In this document: positions 54,304 through 62,007 of the stretch, in pieces
How positions within the stretch are numbered: the stretch's first letter is position 1
Layout: every line of letters begins with the position of its first letter
Assembly (NCBI RefSeq): GCF_002072175.1
Contig: NZ_MVIV01000004.1
Coordinates: 62,001 to 126,000, forward strand
DNA: 64,000 nucleotides
Reading direction: 5' to 3'
Source of the DNA: Actinomyces gaoshouyii
Lineage (GTDB): Bacteria; Actinomycetota; Actinomycetes; Actinomycetales; Actinomycetaceae
The notes under the pieces: model-generated
Told to the model about the DNA's origin: nothing
The model's input: only the letters and a program-made list of their open reading frames with translations
The model's database searches: none
Position numbers and translations under genes: made by a program

Positions 54304-55755
54304 TCAGTTCCCAGCGGTTGCGGCGGGCGCTGCGGGGCTGGGCGCTCGGCTCGATAGCTCGGGATCGGTGCCGACGGTGGGAGTGGCGCCCGGGCTGGCT
54401 CCAGAAGCCTCCGTCTTGGGTTCCTCAATGGCGAGGACATCGACGACGACAGCCACGGGTCTGTCCCCCCGAGCCTGATCGGCGGGCAGGGCCAGGACAA
54501 CCCTGCTGCCCACGGGCACATCCACGAGGTGGTTGCGCAGCCCGGCATAGGTCTTGGCGCTGCTCAGCTCAACGGCGACGGGCAGGGCCGTGGCACCGTA
54601 GTCATTGGTGATGACGCTCCCGTCGGTCCAGGAGACGGCCTGGACGCGGGCGATAATACGGCTGTTGGAGTGGACCTGCTCGCCCGTGCCCTGGATGAGT
54701 ATGACGGCGGTGGAGCGGGTGGGAGCGGGGAGACCGGTCACGGAGAGCGTGACCGCCCCGGCGTCGCCGGGGATGACGGTCGGCATGCCTGCGACAGGCG
54801 CGACAGCCGTGCCCGAGGCGGTGGTCGGCAGGACATCGATGACGGTGATCTCGGTGGACGGAGTGCCGTCGACGACGACCGGGCCGCGCAGGACGAGCCG
54901 GGTGCCCTCGGTGGTTCCGGTGATGATGTCGGTGAGGTCGTTGAGTGAGGCCTGGTCGACGCTCACGCTCACGAGGCGCCGACTGGTGTGCTCCTCACCC
55001 GAGGAGCCCGCGCTGAGGGAGGTCGTGTTCCTCCCGTCCGTGCCGGAGAAGGTCGCGATGGACAGCAGCGCGGCGTCCCCGGGCTGGAGGGCGCGACCCT
55101 CACCGGTGATGAGGGTGTCGATGATGAGGGAGGACGGCGCGCTCAGTGGCGCCGTCAGCTTGACCACCGGTGTGGCGCCGACTCGCCCGGAGACCGTCAT
55201 CGCCTGGTCCAGTGGGGTGTCCGCCGGGAGCATGGCGGCACCGGTGGGGCTCGCCACCGCCCTGCTGGCCGGTGACTTGCCGTTCACAGTGGACAGGACC
55301 AGCGGGATGATGATGATCGCCGCCACCGCGAGGCAGACGAGGACGAGTGCCGCATGCCCTCTGGGTCGGGAGCGGTTGAGCGCGGCGCCGAGGGCGCGCT
55401 GCCCGCCCGTCGTGGAGAGCGGCTCCGGGGTCTCGAGTGCGTCCTCCGCCACCACGCCGTCGGAGGCGGACCGGACTTCCGGGAATCGGGGTTCGGCGGC
55501 CCGGCGCTGCGCGGCGAGGCGCTCAGCCGCCATCCTCTCAGCCTCCCGGCGCTCGGCCTCGATCCGGGCGGCCTCGGCGCGCTGGGCCCTGAGGCGGGCC
55601 TCCTCTGCCGCGCGTCTGCGCTCGGCCGCCTGGCGCTGCGCGGCCTCCCGGCGCTCGGCCTGCACCTCTCCCAGCCGCTCCAGGCCCCTGCGCTCGCGAC
55701 GGGTCAGCGGACGGGTGCTCTCGAGCCCGTCGTCGTTGTCATCGTGGTTCGTCAT
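54304..55755 (-). CDS. Membrane-anchored FKBP-like domain protein next to pafA
   Basis: The 483-residue protein has a highly charged Arg/Glu/Ala coiled coil (about 20-95), one membrane helix (about 134-156) and a large extracytoplasmic part with two FKBP-like repeats (about 175-300 and 310-445), each with a GxG-type strand such as [16 protein letters not shown] and [13 protein letters not shown]. The aromatic residues of an active prolyl isomerase pocket are largely missing, so it may be a chaperone-like or structural form. Many actinobacteria have an FKBP-type isomerase beside pafA. Its ATG overlaps the pafA stop. Confidence 0.7.
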
Positions 55756-57224
55756 AGGGGAGCCTCGCGGAGGACGTCCGCGCTCTGACGCCTCATCGCG
55801 TTCAGGGCGGACATGAGCTTATCGACTCTCTCATCCCACGTGGCGAAGGGATCGCGAAGCGCGATGGCCGGCACCTCCTGCCCGCCTGAGCCGGCGTCGA
55901 GGCGCAGGTTGACCCAGTCGGCGGCCAGGTCGGCGCGCAGATCCTGGGCCAGGCCGATCGCCGCGCCCCGCAGGGCCGCCCTCGTCGTGGCCGGCGGGGT
56001 GCTCATCGCAGCCCGGCAGACGTCGTCGTCGAGGTAGCGGCGCAGCATCCCGGCGGCCTCGAGGCGGGCCCGCAGTCCCTCCTCCGGGGACACGTCATGG
56101 TAAGCCAGCGCGAGGCGGGTGACGCGCGGGTCGTCGAGTCCGGTGCCGGCACGCTCGGCGTAGCGGGTGAGGAGCTGGTGCTTGGCGGCCCAGTCGAGCT
56201 CGGTGTCCACGGCTCCGGGGTCCTGCGCGCGCAGGGCCTCCAGGCCGCGCTCCCACAGGTCGAGGACGGCGGACTGGAGGGGGCTGAGGTCGAGCTCGGC
56301 GTGGGCGTGGGCGCGCACACGCGCCAGGTGCTCCCCCTGCAGGTCCAGAGCGGTGATGCTGCGCCCGTCCTTGCGCTCCAGGAGCGCCGTCCCACTGAGA
56401 TCGTGGCAGGTGTCCCGAATGGCGCGCATGGGCTCGGCGAGCTCGAGGTCCGCCAGGTTGCCCCCGGACTCGAGGTAGTCCAGGAGGAGATCCATGGCCC
56501 CCGCCTTCAGGAGCGTGGAGCCCTGGGCGATGTTGGAGTCCCCGACGATGACATGCATGCGCCGGTAGAGCTCGGCGTCGGCGTGGGGCTCATCGCGGGT
56601 GTTGATGAGGGGGCGCGTGCGGGTGGTGGCAGAGGACACGGCGTCGTGCATCTGGTCGGCGCGCTGGGAGAAGACATAGCGGGCGGGGGCGCCGGTGACC
56701 GGGTCGGCGGGCAGCACGTGCCCGGCGCCCACGAGGATCTGCCGGGTGACCAGGTGCGGGACGAGGGTACGGGCGTCACTCCAGAAGTCCCCCCGGCGGT
56801 GGACGAGGTAGTTCTCATGGCAGCCGAAGCCGCTGCCCTCGGCGTCGAGGTTGTTCTTGAGCAGGTGGATGCGCCCGGGCACGCCGGCCGACTCGAGCCG
56901 GGCGTTGGCCCGGGCGGCGAGATCGGCCATGGTGAGCTCGCCGGCGCGGTCCTGGGCGAGGAGGTCGGCGAGACGGTCGCACTCGGCGGTGGCGAACTCC
57001 GGGTGGGAGCCGACGTCGAGGTAGAGGCGGGCGCCGCCCCGGGTGAAGACGTTGGAGGAGCGGTGGGCGGCGATGACGGGGGCGAAGAGCTCGCGCGCAG
57101 CGTGATCGGCGTCGAGCGGCGCCGCGCCGCCAGTGGTGGAGGCGCAGGTGATGCCGTACTCGGTCTCGATGCCGATGATCCGCCGGGAGGGCGGGCGGCA
57201 CCCGCCGTCAGCCGCGGCGCTCAC
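55752..57224 (-). CDS. pafA: Pup-protein ligase PafA
   Basis: PafA joins the C-terminal glutamate of Pup to lysines of target proteins, using ATP. The 490-residue glutamine-synthetase-like enzyme shows the Mg/ATP motif IIGIETEYGIT, the catalytic aspartate region ARLYLDVGSHPEFATAEC, LKNNLDAEGSGFGCHENYLV in pieces and RPLINTRDEPHADAE. Its GTG start abuts the pup stop. No prcB/prcA lie between pup and pafA. Confidence 0.97.
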   Translation of the reverse strand: MSAAADGGCRPPSRRIIGIETEYGITCASTTGGAAPLDADHAARELFAPVIAAHRSSNVFTRGGARLYLDVGSHPEFATAECDRLADLLAQDRAGELTMADLAARANARLESAGVPGRIHLLKNNLDAEGSGFGCHENYLVHRRGDFWSDARTLVPHLVTRQILVGAGHVLPADPVTGAPARYVFSQRADQMHDAVSSATTRTRPLINTRDEPHADAELYRRMHVIVGDSNIAQGSTLLKAGAMDLLLDYLESGGNLADLELAEPMRAIRDTCHDLSGTALLERKDGRSITALDLQGEHLARVRAHAHAELDLSPLQSAVLDLWERGLEALRAQDPGAVDTELDWAAKHQLLTRYAERAGTGLDDPRVTRLALAYHDVSPEEGLRARLEAAGMLRRYLDDDVCRAAMSTPPATTRAALRGAAIGLAQDLRADLAADWVNLRLDAGSGGQEVPAIALRDPFATWDERVDKLMSALNAMRRQSADVLREAPL

Positions 57225-57413
57225 TCACTGACCGCCCTTCTGAACGAATCCCTGGACGAAGGCCGCCGCGTTGGTCTCCAGGACGGAGTCGATCTCGTCG
57301 AGGATGGCGTCGACGCCAGTGGTCTGGACCTGGCAAGCCGCGCTGGTGACCTCGGACTCGGTGCCGCCCTCGCCGCCGGAGGGCCGGATCTGCTGCGCTT
57401 CCTGGCTGGTCAT
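57225..57413 (-). CDS. pup: Prokaryotic ubiquitin-like protein Pup
   Basis: Pup is the small, mostly disordered tag attached to proteins. This 62-residue form has the conserved helix and tail VDAILDEIDSVLETNAAAFVQGF in pieces and ends in ...QKGGQ, so it must be deamidated by Dop before ligation. The N terminus is Gln/Gly/Glu-rich and contains one cysteine (Cys27), uncommon for Pup. ATG 57413 is clear; a longer in-frame extension upstream is not credible. Confidence 0.97.
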   Translation of the reverse strand: MTSQEAQQIRPSGGEGGTESEVTSAACQVQTTGVDAILDEIDSVLETNAAAFVQGFVQKGGQ

Positions 57414-57471
57414 GGTCGTTCCTTCGCGTTGGCCCGACGGTTGGAGCGGGTGGGTCGGGAGTGAGGGGCGG

Positions 57472-59199
57472 TCACTGGACCAAGTCTCCCCCACCTTGGG
57501 CCGCGCGCTCAATCGCCGTGAGAAGTCCCTCAGTCTCGGCCTCGGTGACGGCGACGGCGCCTGGCAGGGCGACTCGGATGAGCTGGGGGCGCTGGGGGGC
57601 ATCGATGACGAGGCTGGTCCAGGAGGCAGAGACGACCTCGGGGATCGTGGCGATCGCGCGGCCCCGCACGGCGGCGCGGGTGCCCGCCGGCGGGGTGTCG
57701 GCGGCGGCCTCGATCCGCGAGGGGTCGAGGAGGCGGCGGACGCGGCCGGCGGCGTCGAGGCGATCGACGACGGACCCCTCGCGCAGGTCGCCCCACGTGA
57801 TGTCGAGAGCGGCCAGGCGCGGATCGCTCCAATCGGTGCCCGAGCGCGCGCGCAGGCCCTCGCAGAGCTGCATCTTGGCGGCCCACTCGATCATGGGTGC
57901 GGCGGCCGCCACCGGCTGGAGGTCGCCCGGCGCGGCGGCGATCGCCTCGAGGAGGCCCAGCGCCTCCTCCCACAGGGCCAGGGCGCGGGCGGTCTCCTCA
58001 CCGAGGTTCTGCGCACCAATGCCCCCGTAGTCGGCCTCGAGCGCGGCGGCGATGACCTCCAGGAGCGAGCGCTGGATGGCGACGGCGCTCATGGGCCCGC
58101 CTTGGGTGGTGAGCGCGTAGGCGAGGGTCGCGTCGTGGGAGAGGGCCCACTGCTGCTCGACGGGGTCGCCGAGGATCCGCAGGGGCGCCAGGGCTCCGAT
58201 CCCCTCGCCGCGCTCGTGGGAGCGCTCCAGGAACCACAGGAGAAGGTCGGTGGTGGCGATCTTGAGATAGCCGGGAACGTCGAAGCGGTTGGCGTCGCCA
58301 TTGATGACGTGGAAGCGGCGCCAGCGGGCTGCGTCGGCATGGGGCTCGTCGCGGGTGTTGACGATGGGCCGGTTGAAGGTGGTCTGCAGGCCGATCGGGC
58401 AGCCAATGAAGTCGGCGCGCTGGCTCATCTGGAAGCCGGGGCGCTCACTGCGCTCGCCCAGCCCCACGCGCCCTGCGCCGACGACGACTGGCCGGGTCAT
58501 GAGGAAGGGCGTCAGGGCCGCGGCGAGGGCGTCGAGGGGCAGGTCGCGACGCACGAGGTAGTTCTCGTGGCTGCCGTAGGCAGCGCCCTTGCCGTCGGTA
58601 TTGTTCTTGTACAGGACGATCTCGGGACCGCCGGAACGGGCCCGGGCCTCCATGGCGCGCCGGGCGATGACCTCTCCCGCCCGGTCCCAGGCCAGGGCGT
58701 CCGTGGGGGTGAGGGCTTCCGGGGCCGAGTACTCGGGGTGGGCGTGGTCCACGTAGAGGCGCGCGCCGTTGGCGAGCACAGCCGTGGTGGCTCGGGGAAG
58801 CGCGGCTTCCTCGTCACTCGGCCTGGGGCGAGTCCCCCAGTCGAGGCCCACGGGGCCGCCATCGGCGGGCGCATCGCCGGAGGGGGCGGGGGCGGTGGGG
58901 TCGTCGGTGAGCTGGCTGGGGTGGGCGGCGGCACGGTCGATGCGCCCGCCGCGCAGGTCCGCCAGAGGATCTTCCCCCTCGTAGTCCCAGGTCACCGAGG
59001 CGGCACCGGGCAGGCCCGGGCGGGAGCGGGCGGCGTAGGCGTCGACGATGAGGCTGGAGAGCACGACGGGGTTGGCGCGGGAGTTGCCGGGCTCGGTGAC
59101 GCCGAACTCGGTCTCGAGGCCGACCGGCCTCGTCGTGGGGCCGAGCGCGGCGACGGGAGCTTGGGCAATAACGGGCATGGATGTGGCTGAGGTGGTCAT
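57472..59199 (-). CDS. dop: Pup deamidase/depupylase Dop
   Basis: Dop converts the Pup C-terminal Gln to Glu and removes Pup from tagged proteins. The 575-residue protein is a PafA paralogue with VGLETEFGVTEPG, the region ARLYVDHAHPEYSAPE with the nucleophilic aspartate, LYKNNTDGKGAAYGSHENYLV in pieces and RPIVNTRDEPHAD. It is longer than the usual 500 because of an expanded Asp/Pro/Ala-rich insertion in the Dop-loop region (about residues 75-130). The ATG overlaps the arc stop (ATGA). Confidence 0.96.
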   Translation of the reverse strand: MTTSATSMPVIAQAPVAALGPTTRPVGLETEFGVTEPGNSRANPVVLSSLIVDAYAARSRPGLPGAASVTWDYEGEDPLADLRGGRIDRAAAHPSQLTDDPTAPAPSGDAPADGGPVGLDWGTRPRPSDEEAALPRATTAVLANGARLYVDHAHPEYSAPEALTPTDALAWDRAGEVIARRAMEARARSGGPEIVLYKNNTDGKGAAYGSHENYLVRRDLPLDALAAALTPFLMTRPVVVGAGRVGLGERSERPGFQMSQRADFIGCPIGLQTTFNRPIVNTRDEPHADAARWRRFHVINGDANRFDVPGYLKIATTDLLLWFLERSHERGEGIGALAPLRILGDPVEQQWALSHDATLAYALTTQGGPMSAVAIQRSLLEVIAAALEADYGGIGAQNLGEETARALALWEEALGLLEAIAAAPGDLQPVAAAAPMIEWAAKMQLCEGLRARSGTDWSDPRLAALDITWGDLREGSVVDRLDAAGRVRRLLDPSRIEAAADTPPAGTRAAVRGRAIATIPEVVSASWTSLVIDAPQRPQLIRVALPGAVAVTEAETEGLLTAIERAAQGGGDLVQ

Positions 59200-60911
59200 G
59201 CGCCTTCCTGCGTCTCGTGGGGCCGCGCGGCGCTGATGGCGGCGCCCAGGCGCCGAGCACCGCGGATCGGCCCGGACTGGGCGCCGATGAGCCTGGCCCA
59301 TCCCTCGGGACTGGTGGCACCGGTGATCTCCTCATTCTGCCGTGCCTCCTCGGCCACGGCGGCCAGGAGACGGGCAGTGGAGAGCCCTCCCGCCCCACCG
59401 GAGAGCTCGTCCTTGATGGCGGCGGTCTTGGCGCGGGCGACGATCTGGGCGAGCATCGCCCCGCTGACGAGGTCGCCGAGGTGGAGGGTCCGGGTGGCGC
59501 CGGAGGTGTAGGAGACCTCGAGGACCGCGGTGGCGGGCGAGCGGGCGTAGAGGGCGTCGACGGCGGCGGCGCGCATGGCGGCGGCCGCACTCTCGCGGTC
59601 ACCGCCGTGGGCGGCGAGCTCGGCCGGATCGAGGGGGATGTCGGTGGTGAGGTGCCGGGCGAGGATGTCGAGGGCCTGGGCGGCATCGGGGCGGGAGACG
59701 CGGATCTTCACGTCGAGGCGACCGGGGCGCAGGATCGCGGGGTCGATCATGTCCTCGCGGTTGGAGGCGCCGATGATGACGACGTTGCGCAGGGACTCCA
59801 CGCCGTCGATCTCGGCCAGAACTTGCGGGACGATCATAGTCTCAACGTCGCTGGAGACCCCGGTGCCGCGGGTGCGGAAGAGGGCCTCCATCTCATCGAA
59901 GAAGATGATGACGGGCCGGTCCTCGGCGGCGGCCCTGCGGGCCTGTTCGAAGATGGCGCGGATCTGGCGCTCCGTCTCTCCGACGAATTTGCTGAGCAGC
60001 TCGGGGCCCTTGATGTTGAGGAAGGCGGCGGTGCGACCCGTGGCGCGCTCGCCGCCGGTCCCGTCGCCGCCGGCGGCGAGTGATGTGGCAACGGCCTTGG
60101 CGATGAGGGTCTTGCCGCATCCGGGCGGGCCGTAGAGGAGGAGGCCCTTGGGAGCGCGCAGCCCATAGGCGCGGTAGAGGCCGGGATGGGTGAAAGGCAG
60201 TTCGAGCGCGTCTCGGATGGCCTGGATCTGGGGGCCGAGGCCGCCGATGTCCTCCCAGGTGACGTCCGGCGTCTCGGCTACGACGAGCTGCTCAACGCTC
60301 GTGCGCTCGATGATCGCGGTGGCCACGTCCGCGCGCAGGTCGGCGGCCAGCGTGGTGCCGGGGGCGAGGGCGCCAGCGTCCAGGGCGCCGCCGAGCCGCA
60401 GGACACGGGTTGCGCCGGAGCCGGTGGTGACAAGGGCGCGGGTGTCATCGAGGACCTCGTCGAGGACGACGGCCTCGCCGGTGTCGGGCTCGGGAAGGGC
60501 GTCGACGACGAGCATGGCGTCATTGACGGCGACGAGCTGGCCGATGCGCAGGGCCCCGGGGTCGAGGCCCGGGCGCAGGCCGAGGCTCATGATGCGCCCG
60601 CCGAGGAGGACGAGGGCCTCGGGGGCGGAGGCGCTCACGGAGGCAGCGGCGACGGAGGCGGACTCCTCGGCACGGTCTGGGGCACGGTCTGGGCGGGTGC
60701 GGAGGCCGGTGAGGAGGGCGAGGGTGACGGGCGGGTGGGTGACGGCGTCGAGCTGGGCGCCGAGCTCGGCGATCCGCTCTCGGGCGGAGGTGAGGGCCCG
60801 GGTGAGGCGCTCGTTCTTCTCGGCCAGGGAGACGGCCTCGGCGCGGGCCTCGCGCAGCTGGTGGCTGGTGAAGGAAGGCGCGGGCATGCCCAGGTCGGCG
60901 GTGTCAGTCAT
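59196..60911 (-). CDS. arc: Proteasome-associated-type AAA+ ATPase ARC/Mpa lacking the proteasome-docking tail
   Basis: ARC/Mpa is the hexameric unfoldase that recognises Pup. The 571-residue protein has an N-terminal coiled coil for Pup binding (about 15-58), OB domains, Walker A YGPPGCGKTLIAKAV, Walker B IIFFDEMEALF and the second region of homology. Its C terminus ends HETQEGA instead of the GQYL-type motif that opens the 20S gate in Mpa. Together with the missing prcBA genes this points to a proteasome-independent role, as described for Corynebacterium. Confidence 0.95.
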   Translation of the reverse strand: MTDTADLGMPAPSFTSHQLREARAEAVSLAEKNERLTRALTSARERIAELGAQLDAVTHPPVTLALLTGLRTRPDRAPDRAEESASVAAASVSASAPEALVLLGGRIMSLGLRPGLDPGALRIGQLVAVNDAMLVVDALPEPDTGEAVVLDEVLDDTRALVTTGSGATRVLRLGGALDAGALAPGTTLAADLRADVATAIIERTSVEQLVVAETPDVTWEDIGGLGPQIQAIRDALELPFTHPGLYRAYGLRAPKGLLLYGPPGCGKTLIAKAVATSLAAGGDGTGGERATGRTAAFLNIKGPELLSKFVGETERQIRAIFEQARRAAAEDRPVIIFFDEMEALFRTRGTGVSSDVETMIVPQVLAEIDGVESLRNVVIIGASNREDMIDPAILRPGRLDVKIRVSRPDAAQALDILARHLTTDIPLDPAELAAHGGDRESAAAAMRAAAVDALYARSPATAVLEVSYTSGATRTLHLGDLVSGAMLAQIVARAKTAAIKDELSGGAGGLSTARLLAAVAEEARQNEEITGATSPEGWARLIGAQSGPIRGARRLGAAISAARPHETQEGA

Positions 60912-62007
60912 CGAGGGGCTCCTGCGGGGCGTCGTCGCCCCCGGCGGTGGGGACGCCGGGGAGGACGGGGGTGGCGTCCTCGGGCTGCTTGGCGAGGCAG
61001 TCGCGCAGGACGCGGCGTACCTTCCGGTCGGTGCTCGTGCGCTCGCGCACGTCCTCGGGGATCCAGTGGCCGGCGTCGTCGTAGGCTCCGCGGGCGGGTG
61101 GGCGCTTGCGCGTCAGCGGTGCGCTGCCGGGGGCCAGGCGCCGGGCGGTGAGGAGGAATCCGGTGTGGGCGACCATGCGGTGGTCGGGGCGCACGGACAG
61201 GCCATCGACGTTCCAGGTGCGCACCATGGACTCCCAGGCCTCGGGCTCGGTGAAGAGCAGGCTGTGGCGCAGGGCCTCGACGGTGCGCGACATCTGGGTG
61301 GTGGTGGCGACGTAGGCGAGAAAGAGGCCGCCGGGGGCCAGGACGCGGGCGGAGGCCTCGATGTTCTCCCAGGGAGCGAGCATGTCCAGGATGACGCGGT
61401 CGATGGAGGCGTCCTCGACGCGAGCGGCGACGACGTCGTTGAAATCGCCGGTGCGCAGCTCCCAGGCGGGATGATGGCCCCCGAACCAGGAATCGACGTT
61501 GGAGGCGGCGATGGCGGCGAAATCCTCGCGCCGCTCGATGGACATGAGGCTCCCGGTCTCCCCGATGGCCGACAGGAGGTTCATCGTCAGGGCGCCGGAG
61601 CCGACGCCGGCCTCGAGCACGCGGGCACCGGGGAAGATGTCGCCCAGGGCGATGACCTGGCCTGAGTCCTTGGCATAGACCACTTGGGCGCCGCGGGGCA
61701 TCGACAGGACGTAGTCGGCGAGCAGGGGGCGCAGTAGGAGGAGCTCGTGGCCGGAATCGGTGGTCAGGACGGTCCCCTCCTGCCTGCCGACGACATCGCG
61801 GTGGCGGAAGGAACCGCGTGCGGACTGGAAGTAGCCTTGGGGATGGAGGTGGAAGGTGTTCTTGGAGCCCTTGACGTCGGTGACCTGGATGCGCTCGCCG
61901 TAGCGAAAGGGGCCGCGGCGCCCGGCCTGGCCCAGGACCTCCTGGGTGACGTGGCGCGGGGGGAGTTTCGGGGCGGCCTGCGGGTTCTGAGTGTCCTGCT
62001 CGCTCAT
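60904..62007 (-). CDS. trmI: tRNA (adenine-N1)-methyltransferase TrmI
   Basis: TrmI methylates A58 in the T loop of tRNAs. The 367-residue enzyme has an N-terminal domain (RRGPFRYGERIQVTDVKGSK in pieces), then the Rossmann SAM-binding motif VLEAGVGSGALTMNLL and the family block LDMLAPWENIEASARVLAPGG in pieces. It is the first gene of trmI-arc-dop-pup-pafA and overlaps arc by eight bases. ATG 62007 lies seven bases after TAGACT, indicating a leaderless operon transcript. Confidence 0.95.
   Translation of the reverse strand: MSEQDTQNPQAAPKLPPRHVTQEVLGQAGRRGPFRYGERIQVTDVKGSKNTFHLHPQGYFQSARGSFRHRDVVGRQEGTVLTTDSGHELLLLRPLLADYVLSMPRGAQVVYAKDSGQVIALGDIFPGARVLEAGVGSGALTMNLLSAIGETGSLMSIERREDFAAIAASNVDSWFGGHHPAWELRTGDFNDVVAARVEDASIDRVILDMLAPWENIEASARVLAPGGLFLAYVATTTQMSRTVEALRHSLLFTEPEAWESMVRTWNVDGLSVRPDHRMVAHTGFLLTARRLAPGSAPLTRKRPPARGAYDDAGHWIPEDVRERTSTDRKVRRVLRDCLAKQPEDATPVLPGVPTAGGDDAPQEPLDD

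Follow-up and report, generated by a model that had tools for sequence, protein, structure and literature searches.

Proteasome-free pupylation genes in Actinomyces gaoshouyii and a second, divergent pupylation operon in related Actinomycetaceae

A stretch of 64,000 nucleotides from Actinomyces gaoshouyii (family Actinomycetaceae; NCBI RefSeq assembly GCF_002072175.1, contig NZ_MVIV01000004.1, positions 62,001 to 126,000 of the forward strand), in the following called the window, carries at its end a minus-strand gene cluster in the order trmI-arc-dop-pup-pafA, followed by a conserved gene. Judged by its sequence, this operon looks like a working pupylation system that is independent of the proteasome. 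The arrangement as such is already known, and the window's operon is a good and ordinary member of proteasome-free pupylation. The uncommon part is the surrounding family, in which docking-like tails of the unfoldase ARC occur without a proteasome in early branches, and in which a second complete operon free of 20S genes is found.

All five genes lie on the minus strand in this order, which an earlier first-pass annotation had given, and all match the respective family models, Dop just under the cut-off. The first gene, trmI (60904..62007; PF14801 and PF08704), encodes a tRNA methyltransferase, presumably acting in adenine-58-N1 methylation of tRNA. The arc (mpa) gene (59196..60911) encodes the Pup-dependent AAA unfoldase of 571 amino acids (aa) with the tail HETQEGA (TIGR03689, 713 bits, cut-off 505), which also matches PF17758 and PF16450 (OB domains) and PF00004 (AAA core). 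It overlaps by ATGA with dop (57472..59199), which encodes the Pup deamidase and depupylase of 575 aa (TIGR03688, 483 bits, cut-off 492). This protein scores 302 bits with the PafA model, and its structure matches amount to 351 bits for Dop (5lrt) versus 203 bits for PafA (4b0t). The ubiquitin-like tag itself is encoded by pup (57225..57413; TIGR03687, 70.2 bits, cut-off 41; PF05639, 61.8 bits), and the Pup ligase of 490 aa by pafA (55752..57224; TIGR03686, 622 bits, cut-off 551). Pup has 62 aa and the GGQ end claimed before, and fits the range of 50–90 aa with a G[EQ] end given in a passage of PMC2588565; the “two paralogs of PafA” mentioned in the same passage are, in our reading, PafA and Dop. 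Position 57225 is the last base of the pup stop codon, and pafA starts at 57224, the very next base, so that there is no room for prcBA between them, in agreement with the adjacency that had been annotated. The open frames of all cluster genes are full-length.

The 20S proteasome was searched for in the whole source genome (2.26 Mb, 20 contigs, 99.99% complete), where PF00227 yields no match at an expectation value (E) of 10. Among 200 genomes of the family, none matches the 20S alpha model (TIGR03691) at E 0.001 and none reaches the cut-off of PF00227. PF00227 also gives three weak hits below E 0.01, at about 16 bits against a cut-off of 22.4; they lie inside open frames of 770–868 aa, appear chance-like, and were rejected as hidden 20S subunits. 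As a positive control, the 20S alpha model finds 189 of 236 genomes of the class at E 1e-5 (188 above cut-off), with five families of the same order represented among them. The second activator Bpa (PafE; PF10759) is likewise missing from all 200 family genomes, that of the window species included. No built-in control gave a match in this search; hence a separate control set was run, in which Bpa was detected in all 8 proteasome-bearing genomes and in none of 3 family members. With both the 20S core and Bpa missing, it is most simply assumed that the two disappeared no later than at the family root.

A loss of the docking tail is seen in the window as well. The source genome holds a single ARC above the TIGR03689 cut-off; the only further match to this model, of 166 bits in an open frame of 711 aa, we take to be FtsH, judged by size and score alone. 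A second ARC with a QYL-type tail in this genome is thereby ruled out. So is a frameshifted docking tail: neither GQYL nor a YL followed by a stop occurs in any of the three minus-strand frames of a 500-base stretch around the ARC end. The statement of the first-pass annotation that ARC ends in HETQEGA instead of a GQYL-type motif is therefore borne out, nearby frames included. The closest relatives end in HETREGA (genome G300) and HETQEGA (G318). In a comparison set of 80 named loci, ARC was read in 45 and no ARC was read in 35. Where prcBA lies next to it, ARC ends in GQYL in 33 of 33 cases; in loci without prcBA, a YL end occurs in 0 of 12. Five of these 12 are of the second operon type described below; the remaining seven belong to Corynebacterium, Dietzia, Kocuria (3), an Actinomyces metagenome-assembled genome (MAG) and an Actinomycetales MAG.

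The family as a whole displays a more graded picture. We read 53 ARC tails from loci of the window's type (trmI-bearing and taken to be the ancestral form, hereafter type I), a non-random set of best-scoring loci and of genomes picked to cover genera. GQYL does not occur among them; 16 end in another -YL (GGYL, PGYL, AGYL, RDYL), one in FL, 12 in another hydrophobic pair according to a pattern defined by us; the remaining 24 show no such end, although two of them finish in L. The earlier claim that both losses agree is thus true of the window; it does not extend to the entire family, where these 16 ARCs keep -YL in genomes without a 20S match. Tail loss lags proteasome loss within the family. 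The docking-like tails in genomes without a 20S or Bpa match, which have no known docking partner, were read at loci L033-L038, L043, L045, L047-L049, L051, L052, L054, L059 and L061. According to part of a review (PMC12288473), the glutamine of GQYL is not essential, and GGYL and PGYL may therefore remain docking-competent. ATPases of proteasome-less organisms are said to be without the docking motif in a section of another review (PMC3511204), a statement which, given the -YL tails without 20S in early branches of the family, seems not fully valid there.

Several signs point to an operon in use. The match of window ARC to Mpa (5kwa, 7px9) spans the OB domains, the Walker A and B motifs, the KFVG pore loop and the beta-grasp region; the alignments stop before GQYL, and the coiled coil is visible solely as the aligned N-terminal part of 7px9. 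Window PafA aligns to 4b0t and 4bjr, with Asp kept where 4bjr reads Asn, and window Dop to 5lrt and 4b0r. Relative to 5lrt, about 33 extra residues are present in the Dop-loop region (residues 102–138, window positions 58786–58896); this loop is reported, in a passage of PMC12288473, to regulate depupylation. The ratio of nonsynonymous to synonymous substitution (dN/dS; a simple Nei-Gojobori count of window genes versus sister species G300 and G318) is 0.17–0.27 for ARC, 0.21–0.22 for Dop, 0.17–0.20 for PafA and 0.10–0.12 for TrmI. This fits selection on the pupylation genes, somewhat weaker than on trmI, and the low values of ARC, Dop and PafA fit a system that is still in use. ARC is present in 189 of the 200 family genomes; the other 11, three of which are less than 85% complete, yield no ARC match at E 1e-80.

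Based on this dataset, we consider it likely that the window encodes an intact proteasome-free pupylation operon, by which tagged proteins would be unfolded or pulled apart and then released instead of degraded. Dop would deamidate Pup-GGQ to Pup-GGE, and PafA would join the deamidated Pup to lysines of target proteins. Pup would then be captured by the coiled coil of ARC, and the ATPase would thread and thereby unfold or pull apart the tagged protein or complex. The target would be released undegraded and Pup taken off by Dop. The interpretation given in the first-pass annotation is supported, with unfolding or signalling as the inferred output. Historically, the proteasome and Bpa may have been lost at or before the family root, and prcBA with them, leaving pup next to pafA. 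Afterwards the docking tail would have decayed, completely in this genus, because no partner was left to dock to.

A number of observations weigh against this interpretation. The genome is split over 20 contigs, although nearly complete, and the score of Dop lies slightly below its curated cut-off. The dN/dS of Pup is higher than that of the other genes (0.38 and 0.56 over 62 codons). For the final 26 codons of arc, the two comparisons (0.55 and 0.19) give no clear sign of relaxation, and dN/dS alone is no proof that the tail drifts freely. The persistence of -YL in 16 of 53 type I tails is not predicted by simple decay if the loss of 20S is as old as the family. Finally, the known ferritin substrate of C. 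glutamicum is missing, the only ferritin-fold gene found being Dps-like.

Other explanations were considered as well. ARC might pass pupylated proteins on to some other protease, for instance ClpP or an as yet unrecognised peptidase, via a different contact, and Pup would then still be a degradation tag. The whole AAA core is kept in ARC, and GLI, LI, RL or VL ends in 12 of the 53 type I tails, some of them shared by groups, could fit a new partner. However, the tails within the genus of the window (DRQDAP, LGKEST, EPEEEQ, ETQEGA and others) are mutually unlike, which is not expected of a new docking motif, and the family-model scans show no peptidase family among the genes of the cluster, no search aimed at partners having been made. 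We regard a different protease partner as unlikely. Pupylation could also be a plain reversible modification that blocks or relocates proteins, with a role of ARC unrelated to Pup. Both members of the reversible pair, PafA and Dop, show good alignments to their solved homologues, and a passage of a review (PMC8223512) mentions that deleting pup and pafA in Streptomyces may have effects independent of the proteasome. Such a division appears improbable, since ARC is kept almost throughout the family and the second-operon ARC, Dop and PafA each form one clade, as if duplicated as a unit.

A decaying relic that is leaving a shrinking genome would be in line with the 11 family genomes without an ARC match and with the missing second operon in the window species. 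The full-length frames, the conservation of ARC across the family, and dN/dS values well below 1 for ARC, Dop and PafA speak against it, and we deem a relic very improbable.

The substrates of such a system may differ from the established case. In C. glutamicum, which provides the experimental precedent, the known pupylation target in this context is ferritin (passages of PMC8223512 and PMC12288473). The search of the window species' own genome with the ferritin-fold model PF00210 returns a single match, which is Dps-like (best NCBIfam match PRK09448 Dps, 67.8 bits, below the cut-off of 114) and has a thioredoxin-like frame upstream of it; no true ferritin turned up in this search. The Corynebacterium ferritin case is hence an analogy only. 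By this analogy, Dps, likewise a ferritin-fold iron cage, may be a candidate substrate. The likeness to Corynebacterium proposed by the first-pass annotation therefore stands for pup beside pafA, the absent 20S and an ARC without motif, but not for ferritin.

A second pupylation operon was found in relatives of the window species. Two ARC matches occur in 41 of the 200 family genomes, namely in 22 of 37 in the genus of the window and in 19 elsewhere. Both loci were fetched for 16 of these 41 genomes, and in all 16 one is a trmI-bearing type I locus, the counterpart of the window's operon, and the other a divergent locus without trmI (type II). Type II operons are without 20S genes as well, and their carriers include A. 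oris and A. denticolens. In seven type II loci, identity to the window proteins is 32–42% for PafA, 37–42% for Dop (six loci) and 45–51% for ARC. In a joint tree, from which type II locus L203 (G198) was left out as it is interrupted by a contig end, 18 type II operons form one clade with a support of 100 in the Shimodaira-Hasegawa-like approximate likelihood ratio test (SH-aLRT). Single-protein trees recover the clade as well, with a support of 95 for ARC, 100 for Dop (15 rows) and 99 for PafA, and it is nested inside the family's own clade. Joint and separate trees thus point either to a duplication of the operon as a unit inside the family or to its acquisition from a member that was not sampled. 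In genome G150, the type II operon groups among those of the window genus and the type I operon elsewhere in the tree, a mismatch that suggests transfer between genera. Type II loci were read at L065, L067, L069, L071, L074, L076, L199, L201, L205, L207, L209, L210, L216, L217 and L234.

Values of dN/dS for type II genes are 0.28–0.49 between G300 and G318 and 0.0–0.36 between G302 and three A. oris loci. A -DYL tail is present in 3 of 30 type II ARCs and GQYL in none of the 30. In 3 of the 16 genomes, the type II operon is without dop, a PafA cross-match being all that is seen: L063:4515-8198 (G137), L212:6954-10662 (G329) and L214:7236-10704 (G250). As the Pup of these operons ends in GGQ, the Dop of the first operon must serve the second one, if it is used. 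In G333 (L234) and G172 (L217), the single ARC found is of type II, and the Pup of G333 ends in GGE. The neighbours of type II operons are valS and partly proC in Actinomyces, cobalt-transport genes in A. oris and unrelated genes in other genera; no functional hint was seen among them.

The window species appears to have lost such an operon. In G300, the type II operon is flanked by proC and valS. The window species has these two genes side by side (L240:9852-9857, contig C14); the flanks align to G300 at 91% and 94%, the 5148 operon-bearing bases of G300 are missing, and 4 bases remain between the aligned flanks. G318, G329, G250 and G333 also carry the type II operon between proC and valS, and in A. 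oris it has valS as a neighbour. As the site is shared across relatives, loss in the window species is likelier than late gain elsewhere. Most likely, then, the window species once had a second, divergent operon at this site.

These data may suggest two parallel Pup codes in many species, possibly orthogonal, that have no degradation endpoint: a proteasome-free, stand-alone network of signalling and unfolding would have been duplicated via ARC2-Dop2-Pup2-PafA2. We put this forward tentatively, as a possible rather than a probable model. In the same model, and with the same reserve, the type II clade (about 32–51% identical to the window's proteins) would comprise operons that borrow Dop1, and some genomes would hold type II only, the window species being a single-operon revertant. 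No description of a doubled proteasome-free pupylation operon was found in the open-access literature, most subscription journals lying outside the scope of this search.

The closest known systems include that of C. glutamicum. Corynebacteria have pup directly before pafA and ATPases without docking motif, as stated in a section of a 2012 review (PMC3511204), and the Pup-ARC-Dop-PafA set of C. glutamicum resembles the window in the absence of prcBA, in pup beside pafA and in an ARC without motif (passages of PMC3511204, PMC8223512 and PMC12288473). However, C. glutamicum disassembles ferritin, whereas the window genome offers only the Dps-like ferritin-fold protein, and the family of the window lost 20S separately, since other Corynebacteriales and the prcBA-keeping Cellulomonadaceae stand in between in the joint tree. 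The Pup of C. glutamicum ends in GGE. With the Pup-proteasome system of Mycobacterium and Streptomyces, the window shares the gene order and the four pupylation proteins; unlike that system, it has no match for PrcA, PrcB or Bpa, and its ARC ends in HETQEGA instead of GQYL. For two copies per genome there is a precedent in Leptospirillum ferrooxidans, where two very divergent copies of the entire Pup system occur in one genome (part of PMC3511204), as in the relatives of the window species. That organism is a non-actinobacterium with a Pup-proteasome system, according to a passage of PMC4254994, whereas neither copy comes with 20S genes here, and the window genome itself has one copy.

The conserved gene downstream of pafA (54304..55755, minus strand, 483 aa) overlaps pafA by 4 bases. 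Its product has an N terminus rich in Arg, Glu and Ala, and neither Pfam nor NCBIfam gives a match for it at the thresholds applied. Relatives of it follow pafA in most type I loci read and in none of the type II loci inspected for it. Some incomplete or unusual loci were encountered as well. Locus L078 (G123) holds trmI-arc-dop, and pup and pafA were not found in the 4.5 kb downstream; L142 (Georgenia satyanarayanai) holds pup-pafA, and arc and dop were not found in the 10 kb upstream. L144, a contig of 5.2 kb labelled as a Bifidobacterium breve MAG, has prcBA between pup and pafA; as bifidobacteria are described as lacking 20S genes, this contig is possibly misbinned.

Pup is usually presented as a death tag. 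Here, a family without a detectable proteasome has kept, and in part doubled, the machinery of tagging and unfolding, which makes a non-degradative role of Pup directly testable beyond Corynebacterium. The series of tails from GQYL (with 20S) to GGYL, PGYL and RDYL (without 20S) and on to nothing similar probes the role of the tail after the loss of the proteasome. Sister species with one and with two operons, together with a precise empty site, constitute a natural experiment.

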